NCBI RefSeq assembly: GCF_002270415.1
Contig: NZ_NNRI01000007.1
Span: 1,364,001 to 1,428,000, forward strand
Direction of reading: 5' to 3'
DNA from: Mesorhizobium sophorae
GTDB lineage: Bacteria > Pseudomonadota > Alphaproteobacteria > Rhizobiales > Rhizobiaceae
Length of the DNA: 64,000 nucleotides
Below, in pieces: positions 47,399 to 64,000 of this stretch (positions within the stretch are counted from its first letter, which is position 1; each line of letters starts with the position of its first letter). The position numbers and the translations under genes are program-made. The notes under the pieces were generated by a model. That model did no database searches. It had not been told where the DNA came from and saw only the letters and a list, made by a program, of their open reading frames with translations.

Positions 47399-48535
47399 TT
47401 GACCGCAGTGCCCGACATCGAGTTTCGCGGCGTCACCAAACGCTATGGCGCGGTGACCGCGGTCAGCGGCATCGATCTTGCCGTCCCGCCTTCCGCCTTT
47501 GTCGCCCTGCTCGGACCGTCCGGCTGCGGCAAGACGACCTGCCTGCGCATGATAGGCGGCTTCGAGCAGCCGAGCGAAGGCCAGGTGTTCATTCGCGGCC
47601 AGGACATGGCCGGCACGCCGCCCTACCGGCGGCCTGTCAACATGGTGTTCCAGCAATACGCGCTGTTTCCGCATCTCGATGTCGAGGACAACGTCGCCTA
47701 CGGGCTGCGCCAGGCACGGCCGCGGCTGTCGTCGCGCGAGATCGCCTCAAGGGTCGGCGAGGCGCTGGCAATGGTGCGGCTCGCCGGCTATGGCCGCCGC
47801 AAGGTCCACGAACTGTCCGGCGGCCAGCAGCAGCGTGTCGCGCTGGCGCGCGCACTGGTCAACAAGCCGGCCGTGCTGCTGCTTGACGAGCCGCTGGCCG
47901 CACTCGACAAGAAGCTGCGCACCGACATGCAGATCGAGCTGCAGAACCTGCAGCGCGAGATCGGCATCACCTTCGTATTGGTCACCCACGACCAGGAGGA
48001 GGCGCTGTCGATGAGCGATTTTGTCTGCGTCATGAATGGCGGCCGCATAGTCCAGCTCGGACAGCCGAGTGAGATCTATGACGAGCCGGCCGATCTGTTC
48101 GTCGCCGATTTCGTCGGCAAGACCAATTTGCTGAGCGGCAAGGTCGCCGGGCAGTCGGGCGAGCTGGTGGATATCGCGCTTGCCGACGGCACCGTCATTG
48201 CGGCGCGCAAGCGGACGGCCTTGCGGCAGGGCGAGACCGTCTCAGTCAGCCTGCGTCCTGAATCGCTCAGTCTCGGCGCTCCGGAAAGCGGCCGGTTCAA
48301 GGGCATTGTCCGGAACCGGATTTTCCTCGGGTCGACCGCCGAATACGCGATCGAGGTCCAGGGCATCGGGACGCTACTCGCCAAGGCTGATCACCTGATC
48401 GGCCACGGCAATCTCTTCAAGCCGGGTGAACCCGTCGCCATCGGCTTTGCCGCCGGAACGCCCTTGGCGTTTCCGGACCCCAAGAACAACGGGACCAACC
48501 AGAGGGTAACCAAACATGTCGAAATCATATCGTGA
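47399..48535 (+). CDS. Polyamine-type ABC transporter ATP-binding protein (PotA-like), system 1
   Basis: The 378-residue ATPase has Walker A GPSGCGKTTCLR, signature LSGGQQQRVALARALV, Walker B LLLDEPLAALDKKLR and a C-terminal TOBE domain, as in PotA/PotG. It energises uptake of spermidine, putrescine or a related amine. The start is a TTG (47399) or, nine bases later, a GTG. It overlaps the binding-protein gene by 20 bases. The operon order is ATPase, binding protein, two permeases, dehydrogenase. Confidence 0.92.
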   Translation: MTAVPDIEFRGVTKRYGAVTAVSGIDLAVPPSAFVALLGPSGCGKTTCLRMIGGFEQPSEGQVFIRGQDMAGTPPYRRPVNMVFQQYALFPHLDVEDNVAYGLRQARPRLSSREIASRVGEALAMVRLAGYGRRKVHELSGGQQQRVALARALVNKPAVLLLDEPLAALDKKLRTDMQIELQNLQREIGITFVLVTHDQEEALSMSDFVCVMNGGRIVQLGQPSEIYDEPADLFVADFVGKTNLLSGKVAGQSGELVDIALADGTVIAARKRTALRQGETVSVSLRPESLSLGAPESGRFKGIVRNRIFLGSTAEYAIEVQGIGTLLAKADHLIGHGNLFKPGEPVAIGFAAGTPLAFPDPKNNGTNQRVTKHVEIIS

Positions 48536-49679
48536 CGGACTGCCAATAAGCCCTGAAAACTTCGTCGACCAACTGATGCGCCTCAAGCGCGGCTCGATCG
48601 GCCGCCGCGACTTCCTCGGCCTCACCGGCCTCGGCATTGCGACGGCGGTGATGGCGCGCGAGATCGGCATCATGCCGACGCCGGCCTTTGCCGCTGAAAG
48701 CCTCGGCGACCGCATGTCGATCGCGACCTGGCCGAACTATCATGACCCGGCGACATTCGAGAATTTCAAGAAGGACACCGGCGTTGCCGTCGAGGTCAAC
48801 GTGTTCGGCTCCAACGAGGAGATGCTGGCCAAGCTGCAGGCCGGCGCCTCCGGCTGGAGCCTGTTCGTGCCGACCAACTACACGATCTCGACCTACCAGA
48901 AGCTCGGCATCATCGAGGCGCTCGATATGGCGAAACTGCCGAATTTCGACGGCTCGCAGGAAGATCCGCGCTTCACCTCGGAAGGCACGATCGACGGGAC
49001 GACCTACGCCGTGCCGAAGAACTGGGGCACCACCGGCTTTGCCGTCAACACCAAGCAGCTGACCAAGCCGATGACCAGCTGGAAGGATTTCTGGGACACA
49101 GCGATGGCGGAGGGCGACGGCCGCACCATGGTGCACGACTACCAGCTGACCACGATCGGCAATGCGCTGAAATATTACGGCTATTCGTTCAACTCGCTGA
49201 AGCAGGACGAACTCGCCAAGGCGGAGGAATTGCTGCTGAAGGTCAAGCCGCATCTGTTCGCGGTCTCATCCGACTACCAGCCGGGAATGCGCGCGGGTGA
49301 TGCCTGGATGACCATGTGCTGGACCAATGACGGTGCGCAGCTGCATCGCGACATTCCCGAGATCGCCTATGTGCTGGGCAAGGAAGGCGGCGAGATCTGG
49401 ACCGATTTCTATGCCATTCCAAAGGACGCCCCGAACAAGCCCGCCGGCTACGCGCTGCTCAACTACCTGATGAATCCGCAGGTCGCGGTCAAGGAGCACC
49501 TGGCCAATGGTGCGCCGTCGACCGATGCGCGGGTCAACAAGCTGCTGCCCAAGGAGGTGCTCGACAATCCGATCCTCTATCCGGCGGCGGACCTGTTGAC
49601 GCCGCTCGAGTTCGGTGCGGCGGCTACACTGACCGATCCCGGCCGGGCCGAACTGATGGCCCGCTTCAAGTCGGCCTGA
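48516..49679 (+). CDS. Polyamine-type ABC transporter substrate-binding protein (PotD-like), system 1
   Basis: The 387-residue protein has a Tat-type leader with a long cytoplasmic N-region (about 28 residues) and the twin-arginine core SIGRRDFLGLTGLG, then a PotD/PotF-type domain (MSIATWPNYHDPATFENFKK, GSNEEMLAKLQAGASGW, VPKNWGTTGFAVNTK). Tat export would mean that it folds before export. The ligand is uncertain; related proteins bind spermidine, putrescine or gamma-aminobutyrate-like amines. Confidence 0.9.
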   Translation: MSKSYRDGLPISPENFVDQLMRLKRGSIGRRDFLGLTGLGIATAVMAREIGIMPTPAFAAESLGDRMSIATWPNYHDPATFENFKKDTGVAVEVNVFGSNEEMLAKLQAGASGWSLFVPTNYTISTYQKLGIIEALDMAKLPNFDGSQEDPRFTSEGTIDGTTYAVPKNWGTTGFAVNTKQLTKPMTSWKDFWDTAMAEGDGRTMVHDYQLTTIGNALKYYGYSFNSLKQDELAKAEELLLKVKPHLFAVSSDYQPGMRAGDAWMTMCWTNDGAQLHRDIPEIAYVLGKEGGEIWTDFYAIPKDAPNKPAGYALLNYLMNPQVAVKEHLANGAPSTDARVNKLLPKEVLDNPILYPAADLLTPLEFGAAATLTDPGRAELMARFKSA

Positions 49680-49716
49680 GCGACCGGCCTGATGCAGACA
49701 ATTGACCGGCGGGCAC

Positions 49717-50607
49717 ATGTCCGCCGGCACCGGGGCGGTTTCAATGCACGGCAATAAACTTCGTGATAATCTGCTGACCGCCTTGCTGCTCGGTCCGGCG
49801 GCGGCGTGGCTGGTGGTCTTCCTGGTGCTGCCGTTCATAGCCATCGCCGTGTTCAGCGTCGGCGAGCGGGCGCCGGAGGGCGGCTACCAGGCGGCCTTTA
49901 CGCTGGCGCAATATGCCAATCTTCCGGCGCGGGCGACCGCCTTCTGGAACACCATGATGCTGGCGCCGATGGGGGCGCTTGCCTGTCTTCTCGTCGCCTA
50001 TCCAGTTGCCTATTACCTCGCCCTGCAAGCGCCGCAGCGCTGGCGGCTGATCCTGCTCGCGCTCGTCGTCATCCCGTTCTGGACCAGCCTTCTGATGCGG
50101 ACCTATGCCTGGATGTATGTGCTGGGCGGGCGCGGCATTCCGGCTCTGCTCGCTTATGTCGGCTTCGAGGATATCAGGCTGATCAACACGCCGGGCGCCG
50201 TGCTGCTCGGCATCGTCTATGGCTATCTGCCGCTGATGATCCTGCCGATCTATGTCAGCCTCGAGCGGCTCGACCGCCGGCTGCTGGAAGCCTCCGCCGA
50301 TCTCGGTGCGACGCCACTCTCCACATTCCTTGGCGTGACGCTGAAACTGTCGCTGCCGGGGGTGATGACCGGCTTCTCGCTGGTGATGATCCTGCTGCTC
50401 GGCGAGTATCTGATCCCGACGCTGCTTGGCGGCGGCAAGGTGTTCTTCATCGGCAATGCGCTGGTCGACCTGTTCCTGCAGTCGCGCAACTGGCCGTTCG
50501 GATCGGCCATCGCGATCACACTGGTGCTGGTCTCGGTGGTGGTGCTGATCGCGGCCAATCGCATCTCGACCCAAGTCTCGGGCGCCCGCCGGGTGGATCT
50601 GATCTGA
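49717..50607 (+). CDS. Polyamine-type ABC transporter permease (PotB-like), system 1
   Basis: The 296-residue permease has six predicted helices and the EAA-type loop LERLDRRLLEASADLGATPL that contacts the ATPase. Two ATG starts are possible, 49717 and 49744; the second would give 287 residues. Its stop overlaps the next gene as TGATG. Confidence 0.9.
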   Translation: MSAGTGAVSMHGNKLRDNLLTALLLGPAAAWLVVFLVLPFIAIAVFSVGERAPEGGYQAAFTLAQYANLPARATAFWNTMMLAPMGALACLLVAYPVAYYLALQAPQRWRLILLALVVIPFWTSLLMRTYAWMYVLGGRGIPALLAYVGFEDIRLINTPGAVLLGIVYGYLPLMILPIYVSLERLDRRLLEASADLGATPLSTFLGVTLKLSLPGVMTGFSLVMILLLGEYLIPTLLGGGKVFFIGNALVDLFLQSRNWPFGSAIAITLVLVSVVVLIAANRISTQVSGARRVDLI

Positions 50608-51419
50608 TGCGCGCCTTCGTCATTGCCGTCTTCGCCTTCCTCTATCTGCCGATCGCGCTGGTGGTGCTGTTCTCCTTCAACGCCGGGCACCATGCGAGCG
50701 AGTTAACCGGCTTTTCCGTGCAATGGTACGGCAAGGCGCTGGCCAACCCGTTCCTGGTCGAAGCGTTGAAGAACAGCCTGTTCATCGCCACCACCAGCGC
50801 CTCGCTGGCGGCGCTGTGCGGCACTGCGGCCGCGCTTGGCCTGGCGCGCGTCAGTGTACGGACCCGCGCTGTCTTCGATGCGCTTCTGGGTGCCGCGATC
50901 GTCGTTCCCGGGGTCGTCATCGGCATCTCGACGCTGGTCGCACTCGTCCAGCTGTTCGCGGTCGTCAACCCGTTCCTCGCCTCGATATGGCCCTACGACC
51001 AGCCGCCGCGCCTGTCGCTCGGCTATGGCTCGATCATTGCGGCGCATGGCCTGTTTTCGATGGCGCTGGTGACGATGATCGTCGGCACGCGTCTCGGCAG
51101 CCTCGACCGCAACCTGGTCGAGGCCTCGAGCGATCTCTACGCCACGCCATTGACGACGTTTCGCAGCATCGTCCTTCCGCAGATCATGCCGGCGGTGGTT
51201 GCCGGTTACCTGCTCGCCTTCACCTTTTCCTTCGACGATTTCATCGTCGCCTTCTTCGTCGCCGGTGCGCAAACCACGCTGCCGATCTATGTGTTCGCGT
51301 CGATCCGGCGCGGCGTGACGCCGGAAATCAATGCCATCGCGACGATCGTGCTCGTCGCCTCCGTGCTGCTTGTGGTGCTTGCCCAATGGCAGCTGCGCCA
51401 ACGCAAACCATCAAACTGA
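50607..51419 (+). CDS. Polyamine-type ABC transporter permease (PotC-like), system 1
   Basis: The 270-residue permease has six helices, starting FVIAVFAFLYLPIALVVLFS, and the EAA loop LGSLDRNLVEASSDLYATPL. It pairs with the preceding permease. The ATG overlaps the previous stop by one base, so the two are translationally coupled. A short-chain dehydrogenase gene follows after 11 bases. Confidence 0.92.
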   Translation: MRAFVIAVFAFLYLPIALVVLFSFNAGHHASELTGFSVQWYGKALANPFLVEALKNSLFIATTSASLAALCGTAAALGLARVSVRTRAVFDALLGAAIVVPGVVIGISTLVALVQLFAVVNPFLASIWPYDQPPRLSLGYGSIIAAHGLFSMALVTMIVGTRLGSLDRNLVEASSDLYATPLTTFRSIVLPQIMPAVVAGYLLAFTFSFDDFIVAFFVAGAQTTLPIYVFASIRRGVTPEINAIATIVLVASVLLVVLAQWQLRQRKPSN

Positions 51420-52210: not shown

Positions 52211-52254
52211 GCAATTCCGGACGGAAAATCGCTACACGCGTTTCCTGGAATTGC
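52211..52254. repeat. Dispersed 44-base palindromic repeat (copy 2)
   Basis: GCAATTCCGGACGGAAAA to TTTCCTGGAATTGC matches the copy at 8238-8280 almost base for base, with inverted-repeat ends. It overlaps the 3' end of ampR and supplies its stop codon. Confidence 0.8.
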
Positions 52255-53122
52255 ACTCCGTCTCGGCCTTCAACCAGTCGGCAAATATCGTCATTGCCTG
52301 CGAGTTCTGGCGCCGGCGCCGCGCCGACAGCCAGTAACGGCCGACGTCGACGGTGCAGTCGAAAGGCTGCACCAGCTCAGCCGAACAGAGCTCGCGGCTG
52401 AACATCGAAATCGGCAGCAGCGCCACTCCGGCGCCCTGGACGGCAGCGTTCGCCATGGTGACCGATGAGTCGAAGACGATGCCCTTGATCGGCGGGCAAT
52501 GGCAGCCTGCCGTCTCGAACCAGCACAGCCATTCGTCTTCCCGGTAGGAACACAGCAGCGTTTCGCGCGCGAGATCGGAAGGGTCGCGCAGACGCGCGGC
52601 GATGTCGGGGGTGCAGGCCGGCGAGAAGCCACCTGGCAGCAGCGGCGTGTTCTCGGTGCCCTGCCAGGAGCCATCGCCGAAGCGGATGGCAAAGTCGAGA
52701 CCGTCGGCGGCGAGATTGACCCGGTTGTTGTTGGTCGAGATGCGCAGCTCGATGTCCGGATAGGCCTGGTGAAATGCCGGCAATCTGGGGATCAGCCATC
52801 CTGACGCAAAAGTCCCGACGACACCGACGGTGACGATGTCGTTGAAGCGGCCGCCCTCGAAGCGGTCGAGCGTGACGCTGATCCTGTTGAAGGCATCGCT
52901 CAGCACGGGCAGCAGGGCTTCGCCTTCCTCGCTCAAAGCGAGGCCGTGCGGCAATCGGCGAAAAAGCCTGATGCCGAGGACCTCTTCGAGGCCCTTGATC
53001 TGATGGCTGACGGCAGCCTGGGTGACGCGCAGTTCGAGACCGGCGCCGGTGAAACTGAGATGCCTTGCGGAGGCCTCGAAGGCGCGCAAGCCATTCAACG
53101 GGAGGTGCGATCGCTTCATCAT
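52232..53122 (-). CDS. ampR: AmpR-like LysR-family regulator of beta-lactamase
   Basis: The 296-residue protein matches AmpR closely through its length: PLNGLRAFEASARHLSFTGA, the VGVVGTFASGWLIPRLPAF segment, RISTNNNRVNLAADGLDFAI, LLCSYREDEWLCWF and VFDSSVTMANAAVQGAGVAL. AmpR responds to cell-wall muropeptides and activates a divergent beta-lactamase gene, exactly the arrangement here. The gap of 100 bases holds an AT-rich dyad (TAATTTTTCTTA, 53130-53141) that could be its operator. The last eight residues (ECNSRKRV) are encoded by a dispersed palindromic repeat. Confidence 0.9.
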   Translation of the reverse strand: MMKRSHLPLNGLRAFEASARHLSFTGAGLELRVTQAAVSHQIKGLEEVLGIRLFRRLPHGLALSEEGEALLPVLSDAFNRISVTLDRFEGGRFNDIVTVGVVGTFASGWLIPRLPAFHQAYPDIELRISTNNNRVNLAADGLDFAIRFGDGSWQGTENTPLLPGGFSPACTPDIAARLRDPSDLARETLLCSYREDEWLCWFETAGCHCPPIKGIVFDSSVTMANAAVQGAGVALLPISMFSRELCSAELVQPFDCTVDVGRYWLSARRRRQNSQAMTIFADWLKAETECNSRKRV

Positions 53123-53222
53123 CCAGCCCTAATTTTTCTTATGGCGGGGGCGATGTTTACTCGTTTGCGATGGCGCCGGATTCGGTCCAGTTCTGCTGCG
53201 CGGGGCGACAGAGAGTGTGGAC

Positions 53223-54110
53223 ATGACAAGCAGACGCAGTTTCATCAGTGGTCTCGCGGTGGTTTTGACGGCCCCGGTTGGTGCCATCGCGAAGGCGGCA
53301 ACGAGCCCGACAAAATTTGATGGGGTCTTGCCGAAAATAAGGCGGATCGAGGCGAAAAGCGGCGGCCGGCTCGGCGTGTCCTGCCGGATCTCCGGAACGA
53401 CCGCGCAATTCGGCTATCGCCAGGGCGAGCTGTTCCCCATGTGCAGCACCTTCAAGGCACTCGCGGCGGCGTTCATCCTGCATCGGGTCGATGGCGGCAT
53501 CGAGCAGCTCGACCGCAGCATCAAGATCCCGCACGACGCCGTCATCGCGAACTCTCCGACGACCAAGAAACATGCCGGCGGCGAGATGACGGTGGCGCAG
53601 CTTTGCGAGGCCGCCGTGACAGTCAGCGACAACGGGGCGGCCAATCTGTTGTTGGAGTCGTTTGGCGGGCCGGCGCAGCTGACAGCCTATCTGCGTTCGA
53701 TAGGCGACAAGGTGACCAGGCTGGACCGGATCGAACCGGAGCTGAACGAGTCGCTGCCGGGCGACGCGCGCGACACGACCTCGCCGCTGGCCATGACCGG
53801 CAATTTTGAACGGCTGACGATCGGCAACAGCCTGTCGGAGAAGGGCCGGGTGCAGCTTGTCGATTGGCTGGTGGCGAACAAGACCGGCGACGAGCGCATA
53901 AGGGCGGCACTGCCGAAAGGCTGGACATGTGGCGACAAGACCGGAACCGGCGCGCACGGCAGCACCAACGACGCGGCCGTCATCTGGCCGGCTTCCGGCA
54001 ACCCGATTTTGATGTCGGTCTATCTGACGGGCACGAAACAGAGCCTGGCCAAACGCAACGCCGTCATTGCCGCTGTCTCGCACGCGTTGGTCGAAGCGAT
54101 CGCGGCGTAA
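53223..54110 (+). CDS. Class A beta-lactamase
   Basis: The 295-residue serine beta-lactamase has the four family motifs: SxxK at S77-K80 (MCSTFKAL), SDN at 137-139, the omega-loop E173 and N177 (EPELNES, Ambler 166 and 170) and KTG at 241-243. The leader has a twin arginine (SRRSFISGLAVVL), as in several Tat-exported beta-lactamases. A cysteine (C76) precedes the active serine and another (C238) lies before KTG. The ATG at 53223 is used; a GTG two codons upstream is possible. It is probably induced by AmpR. Confidence 0.95.
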   Translation: MTSRRSFISGLAVVLTAPVGAIAKAATSPTKFDGVLPKIRRIEAKSGGRLGVSCRISGTTAQFGYRQGELFPMCSTFKALAAAFILHRVDGGIEQLDRSIKIPHDAVIANSPTTKKHAGGEMTVAQLCEAAVTVSDNGAANLLLESFGGPAQLTAYLRSIGDKVTRLDRIEPELNESLPGDARDTTSPLAMTGNFERLTIGNSLSEKGRVQLVDWLVANKTGDERIRAALPKGWTCGDKTGTGAHGSTNDAAVIWPASGNPILMSVYLTGTKQSLAKRNAVIAAVSHALVEAIAA

Positions 54111-54152: not shown

Positions 54153-55661
54153 TCATACATGCTTGCGGCCACCGGTCTCGCGGAACCAGCTGTCGGGGTA
54201 GGGATACCACCAGTCCTGGATCGTCGGTTTGTGGTCGATAATCACCATCTTCGAGCGGCGGAAGGCGTCGAGGCCCTGGCGGCCAAGTTCGCGGCCGAGG
54301 CCCGAAGCCTTCCAGCCGCCGAAGGGCAAGGCGTCATTGTCGATCAGCGGGTTGTTGACCCAGACCATGCCGGCCTCGAGCCGCTCGGCGGCCTCATGCG
54401 CCTCGGCCAGATCGGTGGTGAACACCGAGGCGCCAAGCCCGAACGGGCTGTCATTGGCAAGCCGGATCGCCTCGTCGAAATCCCGGACACGGCAGATCGC
54501 GGCGACCGGCCCGAAACACTCCTCGCGCACGATCGCCATATCAGGGGTGACACCGGTCAGGATCGTTGGCTCGTAGAACCAGCCTGTGTTGTGTGCGGGC
54601 GGGATGCGCCCGCCGGTGACCGCCCTGGCACCGTTGCGAATAGCATCGTCAACGAGGCGCATCACTTTCGCCCGCGCGCCTTCGCTGACCAGCGGGCCGA
54701 TCTCGGTCTTGTCCATGCCGTTGCCGATGCGCAGCGCGCGTGTCCTTTCGGCGAACAGGTCGACAAAGCGGTCATGCACGGCGTCGACGACGAAGAAGCG
54801 CTCGGCCGAGGTGCAGACCTGGCCGGTGAGGTGGAAGGCGGCGGTGACGCTGCCGGCCGCGGCGACATCGAGCGGGGCGTGTTGGCTGATGATCAGCGGA
54901 TCGCTGCCGCCGGCTTCGATGACGCAAGGCTTCATGCGTTCGGCACAGGCCACCGCCACCGCCTTGCCGGCGGCGACCGAGCCGGTGAAGGCGACAGCAT
55001 GGGTGCGGTCGGAAACGATCAGCGCCTGCGCGGTGGCAGCGCCGCCGGGCAGGCAGGAGACCAGCCCCTCCGGCAGCGAGCGGAACATGGTCATGTAGTC
55101 GAGCGTCGACAGCGTCGTCGCCTCGGCCGGCTTGATGACGCAGGCGTTGCCGGCGGCGAGCGATGCCGCAACAGTCCAGCACATCAGCAGGATCGGGAAG
55201 TTGTAAGGCATGATGTGGACGGAGACGCCATAGGGCTCGTAACGCGCATACTGGAAGGAACCGGCCTGCGTCGTGCCGGCGATCTTGCCGGCATCGTCGC
55301 GCGCCATCTCGGCATAGTAGCGGAAGATCGGCGCGCAGTTGGCGATCTCACCGATGGCTTCCGGATAGGGCTTGCCCATCTCGCGCACCATCAGCTCGGC
55401 GCAATGCGTGAAGTCGGCCGCTTCGATGGCATTGGCGACGGCATGGAGGTGCTTGGCGCGGCTCTTGGCGTCGAGCCTTTTCCAGGCGGCCTGCGCCTTG
55501 GTCGCGGCGGTCAGCGCGGCGTCGATCTCGCCATCGCTGGCCGACGCGATAGCCCCAACTGTCTCCAGCGTTGCCGGATCGATCACCGGTTTGTTCGCAG
55601 CGGTCATCGGCCGGTAGTCCGGATTGACGAAGTAGGTCGGCCGGTCAGGGGCGAAATGCAT
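54153..55661 (-). CDS. NAD(P)-dependent aldehyde dehydrogenase (succinate-semialdehyde type)
   Basis: The 502-residue enzyme oxidises an aldehyde to its acid. Catalytic residues are N154 (MPYNFPILLM), E249 (VIEAGGSDPLII) and C283 (HLTGQVCTSAERF). It resembles succinate- and aminobutyraldehyde-type dehydrogenases. It is the last gene of the nine-gene leftward operon, 20 bases after cupin A. Linked to a polyamine-type importer, it may oxidise an aminoaldehyde formed by amine deamination, although no amine oxidase or transaminase is in this operon. Confidence 0.92.
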   Translation of the reverse strand: MHFAPDRPTYFVNPDYRPMTAANKPVIDPATLETVGAIASASDGEIDAALTAATKAQAAWKRLDAKSRAKHLHAVANAIEAADFTHCAELMVREMGKPYPEAIGEIANCAPIFRYYAEMARDDAGKIAGTTQAGSFQYARYEPYGVSVHIMPYNFPILLMCWTVAASLAAGNACVIKPAEATTLSTLDYMTMFRSLPEGLVSCLPGGAATAQALIVSDRTHAVAFTGSVAAGKAVAVACAERMKPCVIEAGGSDPLIISQHAPLDVAAAGSVTAAFHLTGQVCTSAERFFVVDAVHDRFVDLFAERTRALRIGNGMDKTEIGPLVSEGARAKVMRLVDDAIRNGARAVTGGRIPPAHNTGWFYEPTILTGVTPDMAIVREECFGPVAAICRVRDFDEAIRLANDSPFGLGASVFTTDLAEAHEAAERLEAGMVWVNNPLIDNDALPFGGWKASGLGRELGRQGLDAFRRSKMVIIDHKPTIQDWWYPYPDSWFRETGGRKHV

Positions 55662-55681: not shown

Positions 55682-56026
55682 TCAGCGGATCATGTAGACC
55701 TTCTTGATCGTCTCATGGACGGTGCAGACGCCTTTCCAGTCCTGCGGAAAGAACGCCGCCGTGTCCGGCTCGATCTCGATGATCTCGCCGGATTCATGGA
55801 CATAGGTGCAGCGGCCCTCGAGGAAGTGGCAGAACTCGTCGCGGGTGACGTGGCAGTGCCATTTGCCTGGCGTGCACACCCACAGGCCACATTCGGAACG
55901 GCCTTCAGGCCCTTTGTACAGCAGCTTGCCCGAAGTGTGGGATTCGCCCTCGATCATAGTCGGGATGACGCCCCAGTCGACGAGGTCGGTAATAGTGAGC
56001 GGGGACTTCATGATCGGTGTTGTCAT
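55682..56026 (-). CDS. Small cupin protein A (Cupin_3 type) with full metal site
   Basis: The 114-residue single-domain cupin has SECGLWVCTPGKWHCHVTRD then EFCHFLEGRCTYV. It keeps H57, H59, E64 and H104, a canonical three-histidine-plus-glutamate set, so it probably binds a metal and may be the catalytic member. The C-terminal strand ETIKKVYMIR recurs in its two neighbours. It is 28 bases after cupin B and 20 before the dehydrogenase gene. Confidence 0.87.
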   Translation of the reverse strand: MTTPIMKSPLTITDLVDWGVIPTMIEGESHTSGKLLYKGPEGRSECGLWVCTPGKWHCHVTRDEFCHFLEGRCTYVHESGEIIEIEPDTAAFFPQDWKGVCTVHETIKKVYMIR

Positions 56027-56054
56027 ATCGATTTTCCCTAGGTGGCATTGGTGC

Positions 56055-56396
56055 TCACCGGCACATGAAGGCCTTGGTCAGCGTTTCGGTGATGATGGAG
56101 ATGCCGGTCCAGCCGGCCGGGAAGAACACAAGCGTGCCGGCCTCGACCGGAACCTCTTCGCCGTTCTCATGGACATAGCTGCCGCTTCCCGACAGGAAAT
56201 GGCAGAACTCGTCGGCCTGGAAGGTGACTTTCCGCGTGCCCGATGTGCACGACCACAGGCCGCATTCGCTCGATCCGTCCGGGTTCTGCGACAGGGTCTT
56301 GCCCGAGGCGCGCGGCGAGCCGGCTAGCGTGTTGCTGCCCGCGCCCCAATCCTCCAGGTCCACGGTCGAGGCGTTTTGCCAGTGTGGTGTCGGCAT
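56055..56396 (-). CDS. Small cupin protein B (Cupin_3 type), ligands lost
   Basis: The 113-residue paralogue has SECGLWSCTSGTRKVTFQAD then EFCHFLSGSGSYV. At the places of the HxH pair it has K56 and T58, and the later histidine is T103; only the glutamate E63 remains. It keeps the fold-defining glycines and FFPAGWTG. It therefore looks non-metal-binding and may be a structural or regulatory partner, as many single cupins in this family lack the HxH. Confidence 0.85.
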   Translation of the reverse strand: MPTPHWQNASTVDLEDWGAGSNTLAGSPRASGKTLSQNPDGSSECGLWSCTSGTRKVTFQADEFCHFLSGSGSYVHENGEEVPVEAGTLVFFPAGWTGISIITETLTKAFMCR

Positions 56397-56414
56397 GTTG
56401 TGAAACTCCGAGGA

Positions 56415-56765
56415 TCAGGCCAGCATGTAGACGTTGCGCATGGTCTCATGCACGGTGCATTCGCCCGCCCAGCCGGCCGGGAACATGACCACGGTTCCAG
56501 CACTGACTTCTATCACTTCGCCGACATTCGACCTGTAGGTCGCGCGGCCGGCGACGAAATGGCACAATTCATCGCGCGGGATGCTAAGGCGCCAGTGGCC
56601 AGGCGTGCAGACCCAGATGCCGGATTCCGGCTGGTTGTTCGGCCCTTTGTGCACCAGCCTGCCGGTGGAATGGGACGCGCCGTCCAGCGCATCCGGCTGG
56701 GCACCCCAGTCGACGAGATCGGTGCGGGTCGAGGCCTGATGGAGGTGTGGTGCGGAGGAGGTCAC
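56415..56765 (-). CDS. Small cupin protein C (Cupin_3 type), partly degenerate site
   Basis: The 116-residue paralogue has ESGIWVCTPGHWRLSIPRDE then LCHFVAGRATYRS. The HxH pair is R59 and S61, but E66 and H106 (TVHETMRNVYML) are kept. Its start overlaps the glycosyltransferase stop as ATGA, so translation is coupled. It is the first cupin of the trio in transcription order. Confidence 0.85.
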   Translation of the reverse strand: MTSSAPHLHQASTRTDLVDWGAQPDALDGASHSTGRLVHKGPNNQPESGIWVCTPGHWRLSIPRDELCHFVAGRATYRSNVGEVIEVSAGTVVMFPAGWAGECTVHETMRNVYMLA

Positions 56766-58036
56766 AGCAGCGCCTCCAGCAACCCAGCTGCCTTTTCCGG
56801 GCCGTTCTGCGCGTGCATCTGCGCCGAGGTCTTTGCCAGCCTGGCCTTCATCGCCGGATCGGTCAGGCAGGCTTCGATCTTGGCGACGAGCTCGGCATCG
56901 TTCCAGTCGTAGCGCGGCATGCCGAAGCCGTGGCCGGTTTCCTCGACGCGGGTGGCGTTGTCGTGGCCGTCCCAGACATAGGGCATGATGATGGCCGGCT
57001 TACCGAAATAGAGGCACTCGGTGAATGAGTTGTTGCCGCCATGGTGGATCACCGCATCGACCTGCGGGATGACCGAGGGCTGCGGGAACCAGCTCTCGAC
57101 GATGACGTTGCCGGGCACGTCCGTGTACTGGTCCTTGTAGCCGCCGACATTGACCAACGCCCGGTAGCGCGTCTTGCCCAGCGTCGCGATGATGCGCTTC
57201 AACAGGTCGACATCGCCGGCGCCGAGGCTGCCGAAGGAAACATAAAGCAGCGGTCCGTCATTGTTCTCGGCGAAGGTCGGCACCGTGTAGGGTTTTTCCT
57301 GTCGCACGCAGCCTTCGAGATACTGGAATTTTGCCGGATCGAGCGGATGGCGGCGCTTGAACTTTGCCGCCTCGGGATAAAGCAGCAGGTTCAGGTAGGG
57401 CGAGGCTTCGAAGAACTGGCCGATCGGATAGGGCGTCTCGATGTTGGCGGTGAGGAAGGCGTTGAAGTCGTCATGGATCGGCCTGATCACCGCGTTGAAA
57501 TGGTCGCGGTAGCGCTGGTGGCCGGCATGGTCGTTCTCGCCGCAGCCGGAAAGATGTGGCGGGATGTCCTCATCCTCGATCTCGTTTTCCGAGCAGGAGA
57601 TGACGCGCACCCAAGGCTTGCCGAACTGCTTGATCGCCGGGAACAGGATGACGTTGTCGACGCAGATGACGTCCGGCTTGATGTCAGCCAGAACGCGCGG
57701 CAGATCCTTCTGCGCCCATTTGGCGCTATCGACGATCGCCGTCCAGCAATCCTTGACGTAATTGTCGACCTGGTCATAAGGCGATTTGCGGAAATTCGGG
57801 ATGTGGCCATTGATGAAGTCCTCCCAGAATTTGGCCATCTGCTCGGGCGGCATCGGCTCGGACAGATTCACCGGATGGGCTGCGAAGCCGTAGCCCTTGT
57901 AGACGTCGACGAAGCCAGGATCGGAGAGGAACACCGCCTTGTGCCCGCGCGCCTCGACCGCCTGGGCGATGCCGACGGAATTGAGCGCTGGGCCATAGGC
58001 CGCTTCGGGAAAAAACGCGATCGTCTTCTGCGCCAT
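56762..58036 (-). CDS. MGT-family (GT1-type) glycosyltransferase
   Basis: The 424-residue GT-B fold enzyme resembles macrolide-type and UDP-glycosyltransferases. The N-terminal acceptor half begins IAFFPEAAYGPALNSVGIAQ. The C-terminal donor half has the plant-like signature AVIHHGGNNSFTECLYFGKP then WDGHDNATRVEETGHG, around residues 325-362. It should transfer a sugar from a nucleotide donor to a small acceptor. It lies 12 bases after the ATPase gene in the same operon. A related copy starts at 63095. Confidence 0.88.
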   Translation of the reverse strand: MAQKTIAFFPEAAYGPALNSVGIAQAVEARGHKAVFLSDPGFVDVYKGYGFAAHPVNLSEPMPPEQMAKFWEDFINGHIPNFRKSPYDQVDNYVKDCWTAIVDSAKWAQKDLPRVLADIKPDVICVDNVILFPAIKQFGKPWVRVISCSENEIEDEDIPPHLSGCGENDHAGHQRYRDHFNAVIRPIHDDFNAFLTANIETPYPIGQFFEASPYLNLLLYPEAAKFKRRHPLDPAKFQYLEGCVRQEKPYTVPTFAENNDGPLLYVSFGSLGAGDVDLLKRIIATLGKTRYRALVNVGGYKDQYTDVPGNVIVESWFPQPSVIPQVDAVIHHGGNNSFTECLYFGKPAIIMPYVWDGHDNATRVEETGHGFGMPRYDWNDAELVAKIEACLTDPAMKARLAKTSAQMHAQNGPEKAAGLLEALL

Positions 58037-58048
58037 CAGGCTTCTCCT

Positions 58049-59122
58049 TCACTCTGCGAAAATTCTGACATCGGCGGCGTCCCAGCCGAGTTCGACCTGG
58101 TCGCCCGACGAGACCGGCCGGCGGTCCGCCGCATCGGCGGTGACGCGCACCAGGAATGGCTTTGGCGACAGGGGGGTTCGGACATGCAGCTGCAGGTCAA
58201 GCCCCTGATAGGCCAATGCCTCGACCGTGCCCGTGGTGCGGTTGGCGGTCTCCACTGACGGGAACAGCCGGATGCGCTCTGGCCGCACCGAAGCGACAGC
58301 GGACGCACCGGGCCCAAGCTTGGGGGGAACCTTGCCGGCGATCCGCGTGCCATTGCCGGCGAGCACGCCATCGGCGGCGGCCTTGCCCGGCACGAAATTC
58401 ATCACGCCGATGAAGTCGGCGACGAAACGGTCGGCGGGATGCTCGTAGATTGCATGCGGGGTGTCGCATTGCAGCAACCGGCCGTCCTTGAGCACGGCCA
58501 TGCGGTCGGCCATGACAAGCGATTCTTCCTGATCGTGGGTGACGATGACGAAGGTGATGCCGACCTCGTGCTGCAGGCGCTTCAATTCCAATTGCATGGC
58601 GCCGCGCAGCTTCTTGTCGAGGGCGCCGAGCGGCTCGTCGAGCAGCAGCAGCCGGGGCCGCTTGACCAGAGCCCGGGCGAGCGCAACACGCTGCTTCTGG
58701 CCGCCCGACAATTGCTCCGGCTTGCGGTCGGCGAAGGAAACGAGTTCGGTCGTCGCCAGGATGGCATCGACACGGGAGCGGATTTCGCTAGCCGGCAAAC
58801 ACTCCATTTCCAGGCCGTAGGACACATTGGCCCTGACGCTCATATGCGGAAACAGCGCGTAGGACTGGAACATCAGATTGACCGGCCGCTTGTTGGGCGG
58901 GGTCCTGGCGATGTCGCGGCCGTCCAGCAGGATGCGCCCGTCATTCGGCGTCTCGAAGCCGGCCAGCATGCGCAGCAGCGTGGTCTTGCCGCAGCCCGAA
59001 GGCCCGAGCAGGGCGAAGAACTCGTTCTCGCGGATGTCGAGGGAGATACCGTCGACAGCGGTCACGCGGCCGAAACTCTTTGACACATGATCGATGGCCA
59101 GCAGCGTGCGCGGTTCGCTCAT
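58049..59122 (-). CDS. Polyamine-type ABC transporter ATP-binding protein (PotA-like), system 2
   Basis: The 357-residue ATPase has Walker A GPSGCGKTTLLR, signature LSGGQKQRVALARALV, Walker B LLLDEPLGALDKKLR and a C-terminal TOBE domain. It powers the second polyamine-type importer. Its start overlaps the PotC-like stop by four bases. The glycosyltransferase gene follows directly, tying the importer to the sugar-transfer genes. Confidence 0.93.
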   Translation of the reverse strand: MSEPRTLLAIDHVSKSFGRVTAVDGISLDIRENEFFALLGPSGCGKTTLLRMLAGFETPNDGRILLDGRDIARTPPNKRPVNLMFQSYALFPHMSVRANVSYGLEMECLPASEIRSRVDAILATTELVSFADRKPEQLSGGQKQRVALARALVKRPRLLLLDEPLGALDKKLRGAMQLELKRLQHEVGITFVIVTHDQEESLVMADRMAVLKDGRLLQCDTPHAIYEHPADRFVADFIGVMNFVPGKAAADGVLAGNGTRIAGKVPPKLGPGASAVASVRPERIRLFPSVETANRTTGTVEALAYQGLDLQLHVRTPLSPKPFLVRVTADAADRRPVSSGDQVELGWDAADVRIFAE

Positions 59123-59913
59123 TGGCCGATGACCCCTCGATTGAGCCGCTGCGACAAGGTCAGCGCGGTGATCGAGACCGCCATGACGATGGTCGCCAGC
59201 GCGTTGATCTCCGGCGTGATGCCGAAGCGGATCATTGCGTAGATCTGCATCGGCAGCGTGGTCGAGGCGCGCCCAGCGCCGGCGGTGAAGAAAGCGATGA
59301 TGAACTCGTCGACCGACAGCGTGAAGGCAAGCAGCGCGCCGGCGATGACCGCCGGCAGGATGACCGGCAATGTCACCCGCCGGAAGGTGGTGACTGCGGA
59401 GGCGCCAAGGTCGGTGGACGCCTCGACGATCGACCAGTCGAAACTTTTCAGCCGGGCGCGCACCACCGAGCAGACGAAGGCGAGATTGAAGACGACATGG
59501 GCAAGAATGATTGTGTGCAGGCCCATGGTCAGGTTAAGCATGGAGAAGAACGACAGCAGCGCGATCGCCAGCACGATGTCGGGAATGATCATCGGCGCGA
59601 AGATCAGCGCTTCGAGACCCTTGCCATAATGCCGGCGCATCTCGACGCCGATCGCCAGCAACGTGCCGAGCAGCGTGGCGATGGCGGTCGAAACCAGTGC
59701 CACGATCAGCGTGTTGAGCGCGGCGGACAGGATCGCGGAATTGCCGGCCAGCGAGACATACCATTTCAGCGAAAAGCCCGACCACGCGGTCGGCAGACCG
59801 CCCTCGTTGAAGGACAGCGCCACCAGCACGGCAATCGGGATGTAGAGGAAGGCGAAGACCAGGCTCAGCACGAGCCAGAGCGTGCGCCGCGTGGCGGGAG
59901 AGCGCTCAGCCAT
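59119..59913 (-). CDS. Polyamine-type ABC transporter permease (PotC-like), system 2
   Basis: The 264-residue permease has six helices and the EAA loop LKSFDWSIVEASTDLGASAV. It overlaps the preceding permease gene by eight bases and the ATPase gene by four, so all three are coupled. Confidence 0.92.
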   Translation of the reverse strand: MAERSPATRRTLWLVLSLVFAFLYIPIAVLVALSFNEGGLPTAWSGFSLKWYVSLAGNSAILSAALNTLIVALVSTAIATLLGTLLAIGVEMRRHYGKGLEALIFAPMIIPDIVLAIALLSFFSMLNLTMGLHTIILAHVVFNLAFVCSVVRARLKSFDWSIVEASTDLGASAVTTFRRVTLPVILPAVIAGALLAFTLSVDEFIIAFFTAGAGRASTTLPMQIYAMIRFGITPEINALATIVMAVSITALTLSQRLNRGVIGQ

Positions 59914-60799
59914 CGGCGCCTCCGCTCACTTGCGCGGCGCGGCCCGAGGCGCGATCGGCGGCCAGCGCCTGCGCCATCAGCACCAGCAGCATGATGGCGA
60001 TCAGCACCATGGCGAGCGCCGCGCCGAAGGGCCAGTCATTGGCGGTCAAGAACTGGTCGTAGACGAGATTGCCGATCATCTGGAATCGGCCACCGCCGAG
60101 CAGCGCAGGGGTGACGAAGTTGCCGATCGACAGCACGAAGACGAACACGGCGCCGGCGGCGATGCCGGGCACGGTCAGCGGCAGGATGACACGGCGAAAG
60201 GTGGTGATGGCCGAAGCGCCGAGGTCACGCGAAGCCTCGGCGAGTTCTGGGTTGAGACGCGACAGCGGTGCGTAGCAGGCGAGGATGACGAAGGGCAGGT
60301 AGTTGTAGACCAGGCCGGCGATGACGGCACCTTCGGTGTAGAGCATCGACGGCGGCTCGCCGGTGTAGCCGAACCAGCGCAGCAGCTGGGTGATCAGGCC
60401 CTCGCGGTTGAGCAGCACGATCCAGGCATAGGTGCGGATCAGATAGTTGGACCAGAACGGCAGCACGGCGAAGAACAGCAGCACCGGCTGCAGCCGGCGC
60501 GGCGCGGCTGATATGGCATAGGCGGCGGCATAGCCGATCACCACCGCGATCAGCGTCGCCGTGCCGGCGATGCGTGCAGATTTGAGGAAGATGCCGGCAT
60601 AGAGCGGGTCGAAAACCAGCCCGAAATTCTCCAGCGTGAAGGTGTATTGGATGCCGCCATAGATGCCGCGTCGGAAGAAGGCGAGCGCCAGCACCAGCGC
60701 GCACGGCACGACCATCAGCGCGGTCAGCCAGACCAGCGCCGGGGCCATCAGCAAGGAGGAGCGAAGTCTGGTCTGGGACAATGTTTGGGTACCGCTCAA
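59906..60799 (-). CDS. Polyamine-type ABC transporter permease (PotB-like), system 2
   Basis: The 297-residue permease has six helices and the EAA loop LSRLNPELAEASRDLGASAI. It follows the binding-protein gene by 48 bases and pairs with the next permease. Its first helix (LLMAPALVWLTALMVVPCAL) is typical of PotB-like proteins. Confidence 0.92.
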   Translation of the reverse strand: MSGTQTLSQTRLRSSLLMAPALVWLTALMVVPCALVLALAFFRRGIYGGIQYTFTLENFGLVFDPLYAGIFLKSARIAGTATLIAVVIGYAAAYAISAAPRRLQPVLLFFAVLPFWSNYLIRTYAWIVLLNREGLITQLLRWFGYTGEPPSMLYTEGAVIAGLVYNYLPFVILACYAPLSRLNPELAEASRDLGASAITTFRRVILPLTVPGIAAGAVFVFVLSIGNFVTPALLGGGRFQMIGNLVYDQFLTANDWPFGAALAMVLIAIMLLVLMAQALAADRASGRAAQVSGGADG

Positions 60800-60847: not shown

Positions 60848-61915
60848 TTACTGCGCGGCCTTGATCTCGCTGACGATCTTCGAATAGTCGCGCTGGGCGT
60901 CGCCGACGTCACGCAGCTGCTCGAACTTGACGAGATCGGCCACCGGCATCGCCATGTTGGGGAATTTCGCCAGGAAATCGGCTGGCAGGCTTTCCATAGC
61001 CGGCTTGTTCGGCACCTTGTAATCGATGTTCTGCGCCGCCCAGGCATGGTTCTTGGCGTCGAGCATGAAGTTGATGAACTGGAAGGCCGCGTCCTTGTGT
61101 TCAGAAGCCTTCATCACCACCATCGTGTCGACCCACAGATCCGAGCCTTCCTTCGGGATCACGTATTTGATCTCGGGCTTCTCGGCGATGCCGTAGTTGC
61201 ACCAGCCGTCCCATGCCTGCACCATCAACGCCTCCCCGGAAACCAGCTTCGAATAGAAGGTGGTGTCGTCATAGGCGAGCAGGGTCTTCTTGGCCGAGAT
61301 CAGCAGGTCCTTGACCTCGGCCATCTTGGCCGGATCGGTCTCGTTGACCGAAAAACCCTTGTCGAGCTGGCCGGCGGCGAGCAGCCAGCGGTCGGTCGCC
61401 AGCATGGTGGTCTTGCCCTTGAGGTCGTCGGAGGGCGCGAGAAGGTCGCTCCAGCTGGTCGGCGCCACCTTCACCAGGTCGGAGCGGTAGCAGAGGCCTG
61501 TCGTGCCCCAGGTGTAGGGGACTGAAAAGGTGTTGCCGACATCATGCGGCAGCTTGGTCGCTTCAGGGTAGAGGTTGGCGAGGTTGGGCACCTTGGCGTG
61601 GTCGATCGGCTCGGTCAGGCCGAGCTTGTTCAGCACCTCGGCGAAGGGCGAGGAGACGAAGACCACGTCATAGCCCTTGCCGCCGGCGGCGATGAGCTTG
61701 CCCATGATCTCTTCATTGGTGGCATGAACAACCACTTCGCCGGCGACGCCGGTGGCGGTCTTGAAGGCAGCCATGGCGTCGGGCGCCATGTAGCCGTCCC
61801 AGTTGGAAATGACCAGGTCGGCCGCAGCCGCGGGTGCGGCCAGCGCCAAGGCCAGGCCAAGTGCGATTGACGGCATCTTCAGCGAACGGTGCCGCAAGAG
61901 AGTGGTGGCGGTCAT
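60848..61915 (-). CDS. Polyamine-type ABC transporter substrate-binding protein (PotD/PotF-like), system 2
   Basis: The 355-residue protein has a Sec signal peptide (hydrophobic IALGLALALAAPAAA, cleavage near residue 30) and a PotD/F-type domain: LVISNWDGYMAPDAMAAFKT, NEEIMGKLIAAGGKGYDVVF, VPYTWGTTGLCYRSDLV. It heads the nine-gene operon. The start at 61915 follows GGGGAA; a longer start is possible at 61951 or 61969. The ligand is inferred only by family. Confidence 0.9.
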   Translation of the reverse strand: MTATTLLRHRSLKMPSIALGLALALAAPAAAADLVISNWDGYMAPDAMAAFKTATGVAGEVVVHATNEEIMGKLIAAGGKGYDVVFVSSPFAEVLNKLGLTEPIDHAKVPNLANLYPEATKLPHDVGNTFSVPYTWGTTGLCYRSDLVKVAPTSWSDLLAPSDDLKGKTTMLATDRWLLAAGQLDKGFSVNETDPAKMAEVKDLLISAKKTLLAYDDTTFYSKLVSGEALMVQAWDGWCNYGIAEKPEIKYVIPKEGSDLWVDTMVVMKASEHKDAAFQFINFMLDAKNHAWAAQNIDYKVPNKPAMESLPADFLAKFPNMAMPVADLVKFEQLRDVGDAQRDYSKIVSEIKAAQ

Positions 61916-62012
61916 GACAGGTTCCCCATTCTGGTTGATCGTCGAATTCATTCGCCGGCTGCGACCCATGCCGCCGCCTCGATCCTGTTCCCTCGGTCTT
62001 TTTTGTGCCGAT

Positions 62013-62048
62013 TGTCCTGACAGTACTATTGCAGAAAAAAGTACGTCA
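62013..62048. promoter_or_regulatory. Possible operator of the GntR regulator
   Basis: TGTC-CT-GACA (62013-62022) is a short dyad. It overlaps a longer imperfect inverted repeat, TGACAGTACT (62018-62027) and AGTACGTCA (62040-62048). Both sit in the 230-base gap between the operon start and the regulator gene, the expected place for a divergent operator. Confidence 0.45.
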
Positions 62049-62145
62049 ATCCATAATTTGCCAAGCGACCGTGGAATCTGGCCGATTGCGTCCGTGGGGC
62101 CGATCGGTCAAAGCATATAGGTCATGTCCGTTCACGAGCATTGTC

Positions 62146-63084
62146 ATGCAAGCCGCCGCCCGACGACCCCGCACCAACCACCTCGACCTGGCGCAGCGCA
62201 TCCTGGATGTGGCCCGGCAGCGCGGTTTCGAACCCGGCGCACGCCTGCCGGAACAGCAGATCGCCTCGCTGTGCAATGTGTCGCGCACGCCGGTACGGGC
62301 GGCGCTTAGCCTGCTTATGGAACAGGGCGTTGTGCGTTGGGAGGCGGATTCCGGCTATTACCTTGCCGTCGACCTCACGAGCCAGCCGGCCGTTGCCGCT
62401 GAATTGCCGCCTACCGAGGAGGACGAACTCGCCGAGGCGATTCTGCGCGACCGGTCGGCGCGGCGGCTGGACCAGACGGTGACCGTCGCCGGGTTGATGC
62501 GGCGGTACAATGCTGAACGCAAGACGGTACTAAAATCGCTTAACAGACTAACGGAAGAGAATCTGCTCGACCGTGCGCCCGGCCAGTCCTGGCTCTTCCG
62601 CCGCGCGCCTGACGACCCGGAGGCGCAGGGCGAAAGCTATGAGTACCGCTTGCTGCTGGAGCCCGCCGCCATCCTGACCCCCGGCTTCCGGCTTGGCGGC
62701 GCACGCGCAGCGGCCCTGCGCCAGGGCATGGAAGCGCTGTCGGCGCTGCCGGACGCCGCATTCGACACACGCGAGTTCCAGCGGCTGGACATCGATTTTC
62801 ACGGCATGCTGGCGGAGGGCTCCGCCAATCGCTTCGTGGCCGACGCGCTGGCCGATCATCTCAGGCTGCGCCGGCTGCCGGGCATCTATGCCGGCGTCAA
62901 CGTCTTCCGGCTGCGGCAATCGCTGCGTGAGCACCTGAACATACTCGACCATCTTGAAAGCCGGCAGTATGAGGTGGCGGCCGATCTGCTTCGCATTCAC
63001 CTGCGGCTCTCCCGCAACCAGCGACCGCAAGCGGCCAGTCGCGGGGCGCCCGCCCTGTTCGGCATGATCAGCCGGCCGGAATGA
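62146..63084 (+). CDS. GntR-family regulator with two winged-helix regions and an FCD domain
   Basis: The 312-residue protein has an N-terminal GntR winged helix (10-75; LPEQQIASLCNVSRTPVRAA), a second helix-turn-helix-like region (about 92-153; TVTVAGLMRRYNAERKTVLK) and an FCD-type effector domain (about 165-290; LDIDFHGMLAEGSANRFVAD). The extra domain lengthens it beyond the usual 230-250 residues. It diverges from the importer-glycosyltransferase operon and precedes a second glycosyltransferase, so it probably controls both. The effector is unknown. Confidence 0.85.
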   Translation: MQAAARRPRTNHLDLAQRILDVARQRGFEPGARLPEQQIASLCNVSRTPVRAALSLLMEQGVVRWEADSGYYLAVDLTSQPAVAAELPPTEEDELAEAILRDRSARRLDQTVTVAGLMRRYNAERKTVLKSLNRLTEENLLDRAPGQSWLFRRAPDDPEAQGESYEYRLLLEPAAILTPGFRLGGARAAALRQGMEALSALPDAAFDTREFQRLDIDFHGMLAEGSANRFVADALADHLRLRRLPGIYAGVNVFRLRQSLREHLNILDHLESRQYEVAADLLRIHLRLSRNQRPQAASRGAPALFGMISRPE

Positions 63085-63094
63085 CGAGGATTAA

Positions 63095-64000
63095 TTGACG
63101 CGAAAAGCCAGCCCGACCATCGCGCTGTTTCCCGAAGCGAGTTTCGGCGCGGCGTTGAATTGCGTCGGCATCGCGCAGGCGCTGCGGGCGAAAGGCGCAC
63201 GGCCTGTCTTCATCTGTCATGCCGGCTTCTCCGGCGTCTTTGCCGACTATGGTTTTCAGGAATACCAGCTGCCTACCGACGAGCCGCTGAGCGACAGCGA
63301 ACGGCAGAGCTACTGGCAGGCCTTCGTGCGCAGGCATCTGCCGCATTTCAGGCTGAGCCCGATCGACCAGCTCGAAACCTATGTCGCGCCGACCTGGCAA
63401 GCGATCGTCGACACCGCGGTCAACGCCGAAGCGCCGCTGCGCCAGTTGCTGGCGCGGCTGAAGCCGGACGCTGTGGTGCTCGACAACGTCATCATGTTCC
63501 CGGCGATCGCGGCCGCCGGCTGCCCGTGGGTGCGTGTCGTCTCCTGCGCCGAGACCGAGCTTCCGGACGCGCGGGTGCCCCCCTATCTGTCTGGGCTTGG
63601 CGCCGACGACCCGCAACGCGCGGCGTTCGAGGCCCGCTATCTCAAGGCCTCGGCGCCCGCGCATGACCGCTTCAACCGCTTTCGGACGGATGCCGGCCTG
63701 GCGCCGCTGCCGAAGGGCCTGTTTCTCGAAGCCTCGCCAGACCTCAACCTTTTGCTGACGCCGACGATCGTGCGCCGCGAACGCGCCGAGCCGCTCGACC
63801 CGGACCGGTTCGTCTATCTGGAAGGCTGCGTGCGTTCGGAAGGGCCGTTCGCAGTGCCTGTGTTCCCGCGCAATGAGGGGCCGTTGGTCTATCTCAGCTT
63901 CGGCAGTCTCGGCGCCATGGATGTCGGCCTGATCGAGCGCATGCTGGCCGTGTTCGACAGGCTGCCGGCCCGCTTCATCGTCAATGCCGGCGGCCTGCGC
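63095..64000 (+). CDS. Second MGT-type glycosyltransferase (cut by window end)
   Basis: Translation from a TTG (63095) behind GAGGA gives 302 residues before the window ends without a stop. It begins LTRKASPTIALFPEASFGAA and is a clear paralogue of the enzyme at 56762-58036: shared LNxVGIAQA, DNVIMFPAIAAAG, WVRVVSCAETE, YLEGCVRSEGPF and VYLSFGSLGAMDVGLIERM. The donor-binding motif expected about 30 residues further on is outside the window. It is 11 bases after the GntR gene and likely co-transcribed with it. Confidence 0.85.
   Translation, partial: MTRKASPTIALFPEASFGAALNCVGIAQALRAKGARPVFICHAGFSGVFADYGFQEYQLPTDEPLSDSERQSYWQAFVRRHLPHFRLSPIDQLETYVAPTWQAIVDTAVNAEAPLRQLLARLKPDAVVLDNVIMFPAIAAAGCPWVRVVSCAETELPDARVPPYLSGLGADDPQRAAFEARYLKASAPAHDRFNRFRTDAGLAPLPKGLFLEASPDLNLLLTPTIVRRERAEPLDPDRFVYLEGCVRSEGPFAVPVFPRNEGPLVYLSFGSLGAMDVGLIERMLAVFDRLPARFIVNAGGLR

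Follow-up and report, generated by a model that had tools for sequence, protein, structure and literature searches.

We show by phylogenetic comparison that three adjacent cupin genes of Mesorhizobium sophorae, named A, B and C here, are sister members of Cupin_3 and the products of duplication within a conserved operon. Tree and parsimony likewise show that the HxH motif of cupin A is a late and patchy gain in that one copy. The explanation that we favour, tentatively and with a little more doubt than belief, is that C and A together make up a DUF861 bicupin split between two genes of an amine-catabolism operon, with A the likelier active half and B optional. The genes lie in one stretch of 64,000 nucleotides (contig NZ_NNRI01000007.1), referred to as the window, and were compared with corresponding loci in related genomes.

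Results

Three paralogous cupins in a conserved operon

The minus strand of the window carries three adjacent cupin ORFs, transcribed in the order C, B, A (C first, A last). They sit in an operon that runs from a polyamine-type ABC importer through a UGT-like glycosyltransferase (GT), C, (B) and A to an aldehyde dehydrogenase (ALDH; Table 1). An earlier note, made by a model from the sequence alone, had described three adjacent paralogues of 113–116 residues, and the ORFs, the Cupin_3 profile and the pairwise identities confirm this. All three proteins score above the cut-off of Pfam Cupin_3/DUF861 (PF05899; 23.5 bits). Identity is 45% between A and B, 49% between A and C and 40% between B and C, in each case at an E value of 3e-32 or better, so that the three are true paralogues and not chance resemblances. 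The genome (8.05 Mb) has 11 Cupin_3 matches, 10 of them above the family cut-off.

Table 1. Genes of the operon and its divergent neighbours in the window
Feature	Coordinates	Strand	Basis and remarks
Aldehyde dehydrogenase, last operon gene	54153..55661	(-)	Aldedh 490.7 bits; under the cut-off of all 25 NCBIfam models among the matches listed
Cupin A	55682..56026	(-)	114 aa; Cupin_3 61.4 bits; slowest-evolving copy
Cupin B	56055..56396	(-)	113 aa; Cupin_3 55.3 bits; optional copy, fastest-evolving
Cupin C	56415..56765	(-)	116 aa; GTG start; Cupin_3 52.4 bits; own clade
UGT-like glycosyltransferase (GT-B type)	56762..58036	(-)	EryCIII-like_C and UDPGT domains
ABC transporter ATPase, PotA type	58049..59122	(-)	TIGR01187 potA 366.4 bits vs cut-off 355.6
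ABC permease, PotC-like	59119..59913	(-)	BPD_transp_1; PotC best, below its cut-off
ABC permease, PotB-like	59906..60799	(-)	BPD_transp_1; PotB best, below its cut-off
Solute-binding protein related to PotD/PotF	60848..61969	(-)	SBP_bac_8; PDB relatives are polyamine-binding proteins
Divergent GntR/FCD regulator	62005..63084	(+)	GntR and FCD domains
Second UGT-like gene, TTG start	63095..64000	(+)	Sequence; cut by the window end

The stop of the GT gene and the start of C overlap by 4 nt, and the gaps that follow are short (18 nt between C and B, 28 nt between B and A, 20 nt between A and ALDH), which makes joint translation likely. At their length, A, B and C consist almost entirely of the barrel and have no N-terminal extension. 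The AlphaFold model of A (pLDDT 97.1) is a cupin barrel, and its best structural match is 3bcw (E 4.1e-11).

The importer is of the polyamine type. Its binding protein scores far below the Pot models (126.9 against a cut-off of 582 for PotD, 119.2 against 636 for PotF), and a polyamine is a candidate for the imported substrate rather than a settled one.

No neighbour of the cupins is more constant than the GT, which adjoins the single-cupin forms as well. GT1-type glycosyltransferases carry an N-terminal catalytic His, which is dispensable for N-glycosylation. No His was found at residues 10–21 in any of the 79 operon copies or the 71 divergent copies, and the donor-site motif HHGGNNSF is retained among the 79 operon copies. 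Both UGT-like genes of the window are thus without this His at its usual N-terminal place. The closest solved relatives of the operon GT are UGT 203A2 (7lvy, E 3.2e-54) and UGT 202A2 (6pnt), both of them spider-mite enzymes thought to be bacterial in origin. The divergent arrangement of the second UGT-like gene recurs in relatives, where it shares 45–50% identity with the operon GT. A search of phages with the GT returned two distant matches.

Just outside the operon, 52232–53122 and 53217–54110 hold a divergent LysR regulator and a class A-like beta-lactamase family protein; the regulator is closest to PenR, at 386 bits against a cut-off of 625. Further off, at 48516–51419 on the plus strand, lies a second ABC operon made up of a solute-binding protein and permease-like ORFs, followed by an SDR-like ORF.

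Distribution among relatives

Matches to the trio profile occurred in 78 of 146 genomes of the same genus (E up to 1e-30), 47 of 199 of the family (1e-12), 12 of 385 of the class (1e-30) and 13 of 398 of the phylum (1e-20), counts in which the looser E cut-offs also pick up other Cupin_3 proteins. The order SBP–permeases–ATPase–GT–C–(B)–A–ALDH is common to Mesorhizobium, other Rhizobiaceae and roseobacters. Plasmids of Natrialba and Natronorubrum have GT and ALDH genes together with a single A-like cupin (63.8% and 59.8% identical to A), and among the window's copies A is the nearest to this single haloarchaeal cupin. Tistlia has GT, A and ALDH, and a search at E up to 1e-8 added no more than one weak match.

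The 126 loci collected contain 116 distinct cupin stretches, namely 55 of C-A, 52 of C-B-A and nine with a single cupin. Both C and A are found in 107 of the 116; B is found in 52 and is absent from 55 of the 107 that have C and A. No distinct locus (0/116) has C without A, a count biased in favour of C-A co-occurrence since loci were chosen by their match to A or to the trio. The best 80 of 325 relatives by match to A were retained, and all these counts lean toward close relatives of the window's A.

Duplication history

In a tree of 100 rows, A, B and C each occupied one side of a branch and together stood apart from 13 other Cupin_3 rows. The earlier note had proposed phylogeny as a check on the trio, and the three copies do not fall into unrelated cupin clades. 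A second tree (64 rows) included six single-cupin rows, all adjoining the same kind of GT; five of these branch below the trio and one (L163) lies at the root of the A clade. The branch that unites B with C has support of 95/77. The trees thus point, at modest support for the order, to one gene that gave rise to A and to a B/C precursor, which later split into B and C.

The HxH motif is a gain within A

The motifs and residues listed in the earlier note are present: H57, H59, E64 and H104 in A, only E63 in B, and E66 and H106 in C. It had taken them as a complete metal site in A and a stepwise loss of ligands in the other two copies, and this is not what the relatives show. Of 111 A rows, 59 have His at position 57, 27 have Glu, 12 have Phe and 13 have another residue; H59 is present in 108, E64 and H104 are present in all 111, and H57 and H59 occur together in 58. 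Near-identical rows were kept in these and the following counts, some genomes enter twice, and so does the window (W and L012). Residues that could still coordinate a metal, namely His, Glu, Asp or Asn, occupy position 57 in 91 A rows; the other 20 have Phe, Ala, Val, Arg or Tyr there, which could not. The HxH pair is missing from the consensus of both other copies. B has E64 in 56/56 rows and T104 in 54/56, and C (108 rows) has R57 in 104, E64 in 108 and H104 in 86.

All six single-cupin rows, read directly, have R57; position 59 is Glu in five of them and Val in the other. Parsimony, on a tree built from 114 columns that has many weak forks and with branch lengths ignored, places R57 in the common ancestor and E57 where A begins, while position 59 is reconstructed as Thr at the root of A+B+C and as His in bacterial A. 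By this reconstruction H59 was gained first and H57 after it, both inside A, while E64 and G99 stayed unchanged throughout. With R57 in the ancestor and both His residues acquired inside A, the HxH of the window's A is a late, patchy gain, and we reject stepwise ligand loss on the basis of the tree and the parsimony reconstruction. The caveat attached to the earlier note, that A might be the gain rather than the others the loss, proved to be the better description.

Classical metal cupins combine HxH(x)3-4E in motif 1 with a fourth-ligand His in motif 2. In the window's A, H57, H59 and E64 fit the HxH(x)4E pattern. Among the relatives the pattern is not conserved, given the 58 of 111 A rows with both His and the absence of the pair from the B and C consensus. 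The classical fourth-ligand position corresponds, we presume, to P94+5, that is Gly99, and Gly is found there in every row that has a residue at this position. That H104 completes the site was an interpretation, and we doubt it as a metal ligand: it lies just past strand 97–103 of the model and occurs in four of six Cupin_3 outgroup rows (E64 in six of six). It is present in one of six single-cupin rows, and calling it ancestral rests on parsimony. D63, E64, C66 and H67 are invariant in seven A proteins, two haloarchaeal ones included.

Selection on the copies

Median dN/dS was 0.048 for A, 0.072 for the GT, 0.095 for C and 0.18 for B, making A the slowest of the four genes measured. Values were obtained with our own Nei-Gojobori script on loci L048–L107, dropping pairs with dS outside 0.2–1.5; the rows sharing one ungapped span were 57/60 for A, 40/44 for B, 54/60 for C and 32/55 for the GT. 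Decay of B and C was considered and rejected, as their medians indicate purifying selection. One C copy elsewhere (G1048) has an internal TAG.

C-A fusions and a two-barrel model

C and A form a single open frame in six of the 55 distinct C-A loci, against none of 52 C-B and none of 52 B-A junctions, and the fusions occur in two distant lineages. In five of the six the linker begins AEDEP or AEDGP, with four codons differing at the third base only and one being GAG or GGG. That L013 has this linker in common with the other four suggests that the five fusions share an ancestor and separated later. The same number of fusions, five of six, retain an internal ATG that is preceded by an AAGGA-like stretch, and A may still be made alone in these loci. 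The sixth (G640) is a 251-aa ORF of a distant alphaproteobacterium with a different linker. In a 37-row tree without G640, the fused state needs three changes, at least two of them forced by starred branches.

The AlphaFold model of one natural C-A fusion (L109) reached pLDDT 89.6 and pTM 0.87 on 14 rows, five of which cover the C half. Aligned end to end with VIA-align, it matched 3myx at Z 22.4 (221 residues), 1sfn at 17.8, the ChrR bicupin 3o14 at 17.6, ureidoglycine aminohydrolase 4e2q at 17.0 and YlbA 1rc6 at 15.6. Foldseek also ranked 3myx at the top (TM 0.73). Many unrelated bicupins, seed globulins included, reach Z of about 15 with this model, and the two-barrel layout is therefore generic. 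The two barrels are predicted to pack as one unit in the model of a relative's natural fusion; C and A of the window are separate chains.

The fusion frames and the bicupin-like model make the strongest case, an indirect one, for C and A as bicupin halves. Rate covariation does not single out the pair (partial 0.26 for A-C vs 0.49 for A-ATPase). The nine single-cupin loci of 116 (haloarchaeal, Tistlia and others) have no C and count against the split-bicupin reading. For the A-B-C hetero-oligomer put forward in the earlier note, the part joining C with A gains indirect support from their co-occurrence (107/116), purifying selection, the fusions and the model; the part that includes B does not, as B is absent from 55 of the 107 loci.

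Discussion

A proposed split bicupin and its alternatives

Under our preferred reading, C and A would be translated together and would pair as a heterodimer or a higher oligomer. Their layout would resemble that of PSPTO_0244 and ureidoglycine aminohydrolase, which are bicupins made as one chain, C being the N-terminal-type half and A the C-terminal-type half. The likelier active site would be in A, centred on H59 and D63/E64 and joined in many species by a coordinating residue at position 57. C would serve as its partner, and B would be an additional copy that is optional. The C-A protein might then carry out a hydrolytic or isomerising step on the imported amine or on its GT product, and ALDH might oxidise what results, two assignments that we propose weakly.

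Separate homo-oligomers of A, B and C, each acting on a different intermediate of one pathway, would make the fusions a mere joining of successive activities. We consider this rather unlikely, although enzymes of successive steps are frequent fusion partners, single-cupin loci exist and each copy has its own set of conserved residues (position 109 is Lys in A and B but Asn in C; position 104 is His in A but Thr in B). The confident bicupin layout of the L109 model speaks against it, as does the lack of any C without A among the 116 distinct loci, themselves picked by A or trio matches. The cupins could also be non-enzymatic, serving as small-molecule-binding partners or sensors of the GT or the importer. 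This would suit a metal quartet that is not conserved in full, and a GT that is the most constant neighbour even of single-cupin forms and overlaps C by 4 nt. It is nevertheless improbable: A is the slowest of the four genes measured and has four residues invariant in seven proteins, Pfam found no DNA-binding domain in the cupins, and a separate GntR regulator exists. Still less probable is the reading of the earlier note, in which A is a catalytic metal cupin, B and C lost their ligands stepwise and the three form a hetero-oligomer. The window's A does have H57, H59 and E64 in the right pattern, and C and A probably act together. This reading has to contend with an H57 present in 59 of 111 A rows, an Arg at 57 and Glu or Val at 59 in single cupins, a gain by parsimony, Gly throughout at the fourth-ligand position, and a B missing from 55 of the 107 distinct loci that have both C and A.

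Comparison with known systems

BB1179 (3bcw) and TM1112 (1o5u) share the DUF861/Cupin_3 family and fold with A, and 3bcw is its best match in both sequence and structure. Their entries name no function, and they are single genes as crystallised, in contrast to the two or three operon paralogues here. PSPTO_0244 (3myx) has two Cupin_3-like barrels in one chain and is the best full-length match of the C-A fusion, at 14% identity; it is one gene where the window has two, and its entry gives the function as unknown.

(S)-Ureidoglycine aminohydrolase (4e2q; YlbA of E. coli, 1rc6) has Glu-x-His at its metal site, which would resemble the E57-x-H59 of 25 A rows. The likeness otherwise lies in the two-barrel layout, with only 8–9% identity to the fusion. 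Searched against NCBIfam at E up to 1, two fusion proteins matched no ureidoglycine aminohydrolase model, and in a further difference no allantoin genes were seen in the operon context. This enzyme is described as Mn-dependent in PMC8890496.

Cupin_3 is named the 'EutQ-like cupin domain', and the structural matches of A include 4axo and 2pyt. In EutQ, according to PMC12487888, the N-terminal 99 or so residues form a region that binds shell and cargo. This region is missing from A, B and C, which are 113–116 aa long.

The Puu route degrades polyamines as gamma-glutamyl derivatives. The operon resembles Puu-type catabolism in its polyamine-type importer and ALDH, and differs in that the window operon has no glutamine-synthetase, DAO oxidase, glutamine amidotransferase or class III aminotransferase gene. 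One speculative scheme, to which we give very little weight, is a novel amine route in which a GT without the usual His would tag the imported amine with a sugar, and the split bicupin would deaminate the conjugate or release the sugar before ALDH acts. The tag would take the role that glutamate has in Puu, and recycling of the sugar would fall to the sugar-kinase and phosphoglucomutase genes found next to some copies.

If the split-bicupin reading is true, a bicupin enzyme exists here in the form of separate genes, nature has both fused and unfused versions of it, and the origin of two-barrel cupins becomes directly testable. The history of A also illustrates that an HxH in one genome need be neither ancestral nor a conserved metal site. 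Searches of open-licence papers by operon terms brought up no description of the GT–cupin–dehydrogenase module, which does not imply its absence from print, and a search of these papers for an N-glucosyltransferase gave no match. Common to rhizobia, roseobacters and haloarchaea, the module is a clear target for the discovery of catabolic routes.

Genes beside the operon in relatives

In relatives, the genes beside the operon point to amines and sugars. The cupin locus of Natrialba magadii (L045 2031–16552) has glutamine-synthetase, two DAO oxidase, glutamine amidotransferase and class III aminotransferase genes as neighbours, together with ROK kinase and phosphoglucomutase genes. None of the Natrialba neighbours tested is an assured Puu enzyme, the synthetase scoring 249.7 against the gamma-glutamylputrescine synthetase cut-off of 650. 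An APH-fold kinase lies between A and ALDH in three loci (L151 10019–11050, L121 9356–10399, L155 8445–9470); the one tested, from L151, has the sugar kinase AmgK as its nearest match and scores below the AmgK cut-off. A saccharopine/carboxyspermidine-dehydrogenase-like gene is found 3' of ALDH in two Rhizobiaceae loci, and a DAO oxidase in one locus. Other Cupin_3 genes, from another proteobacterial family, adjoin polyamine-type solute-binding protein genes in four of four loci (L134–L137).
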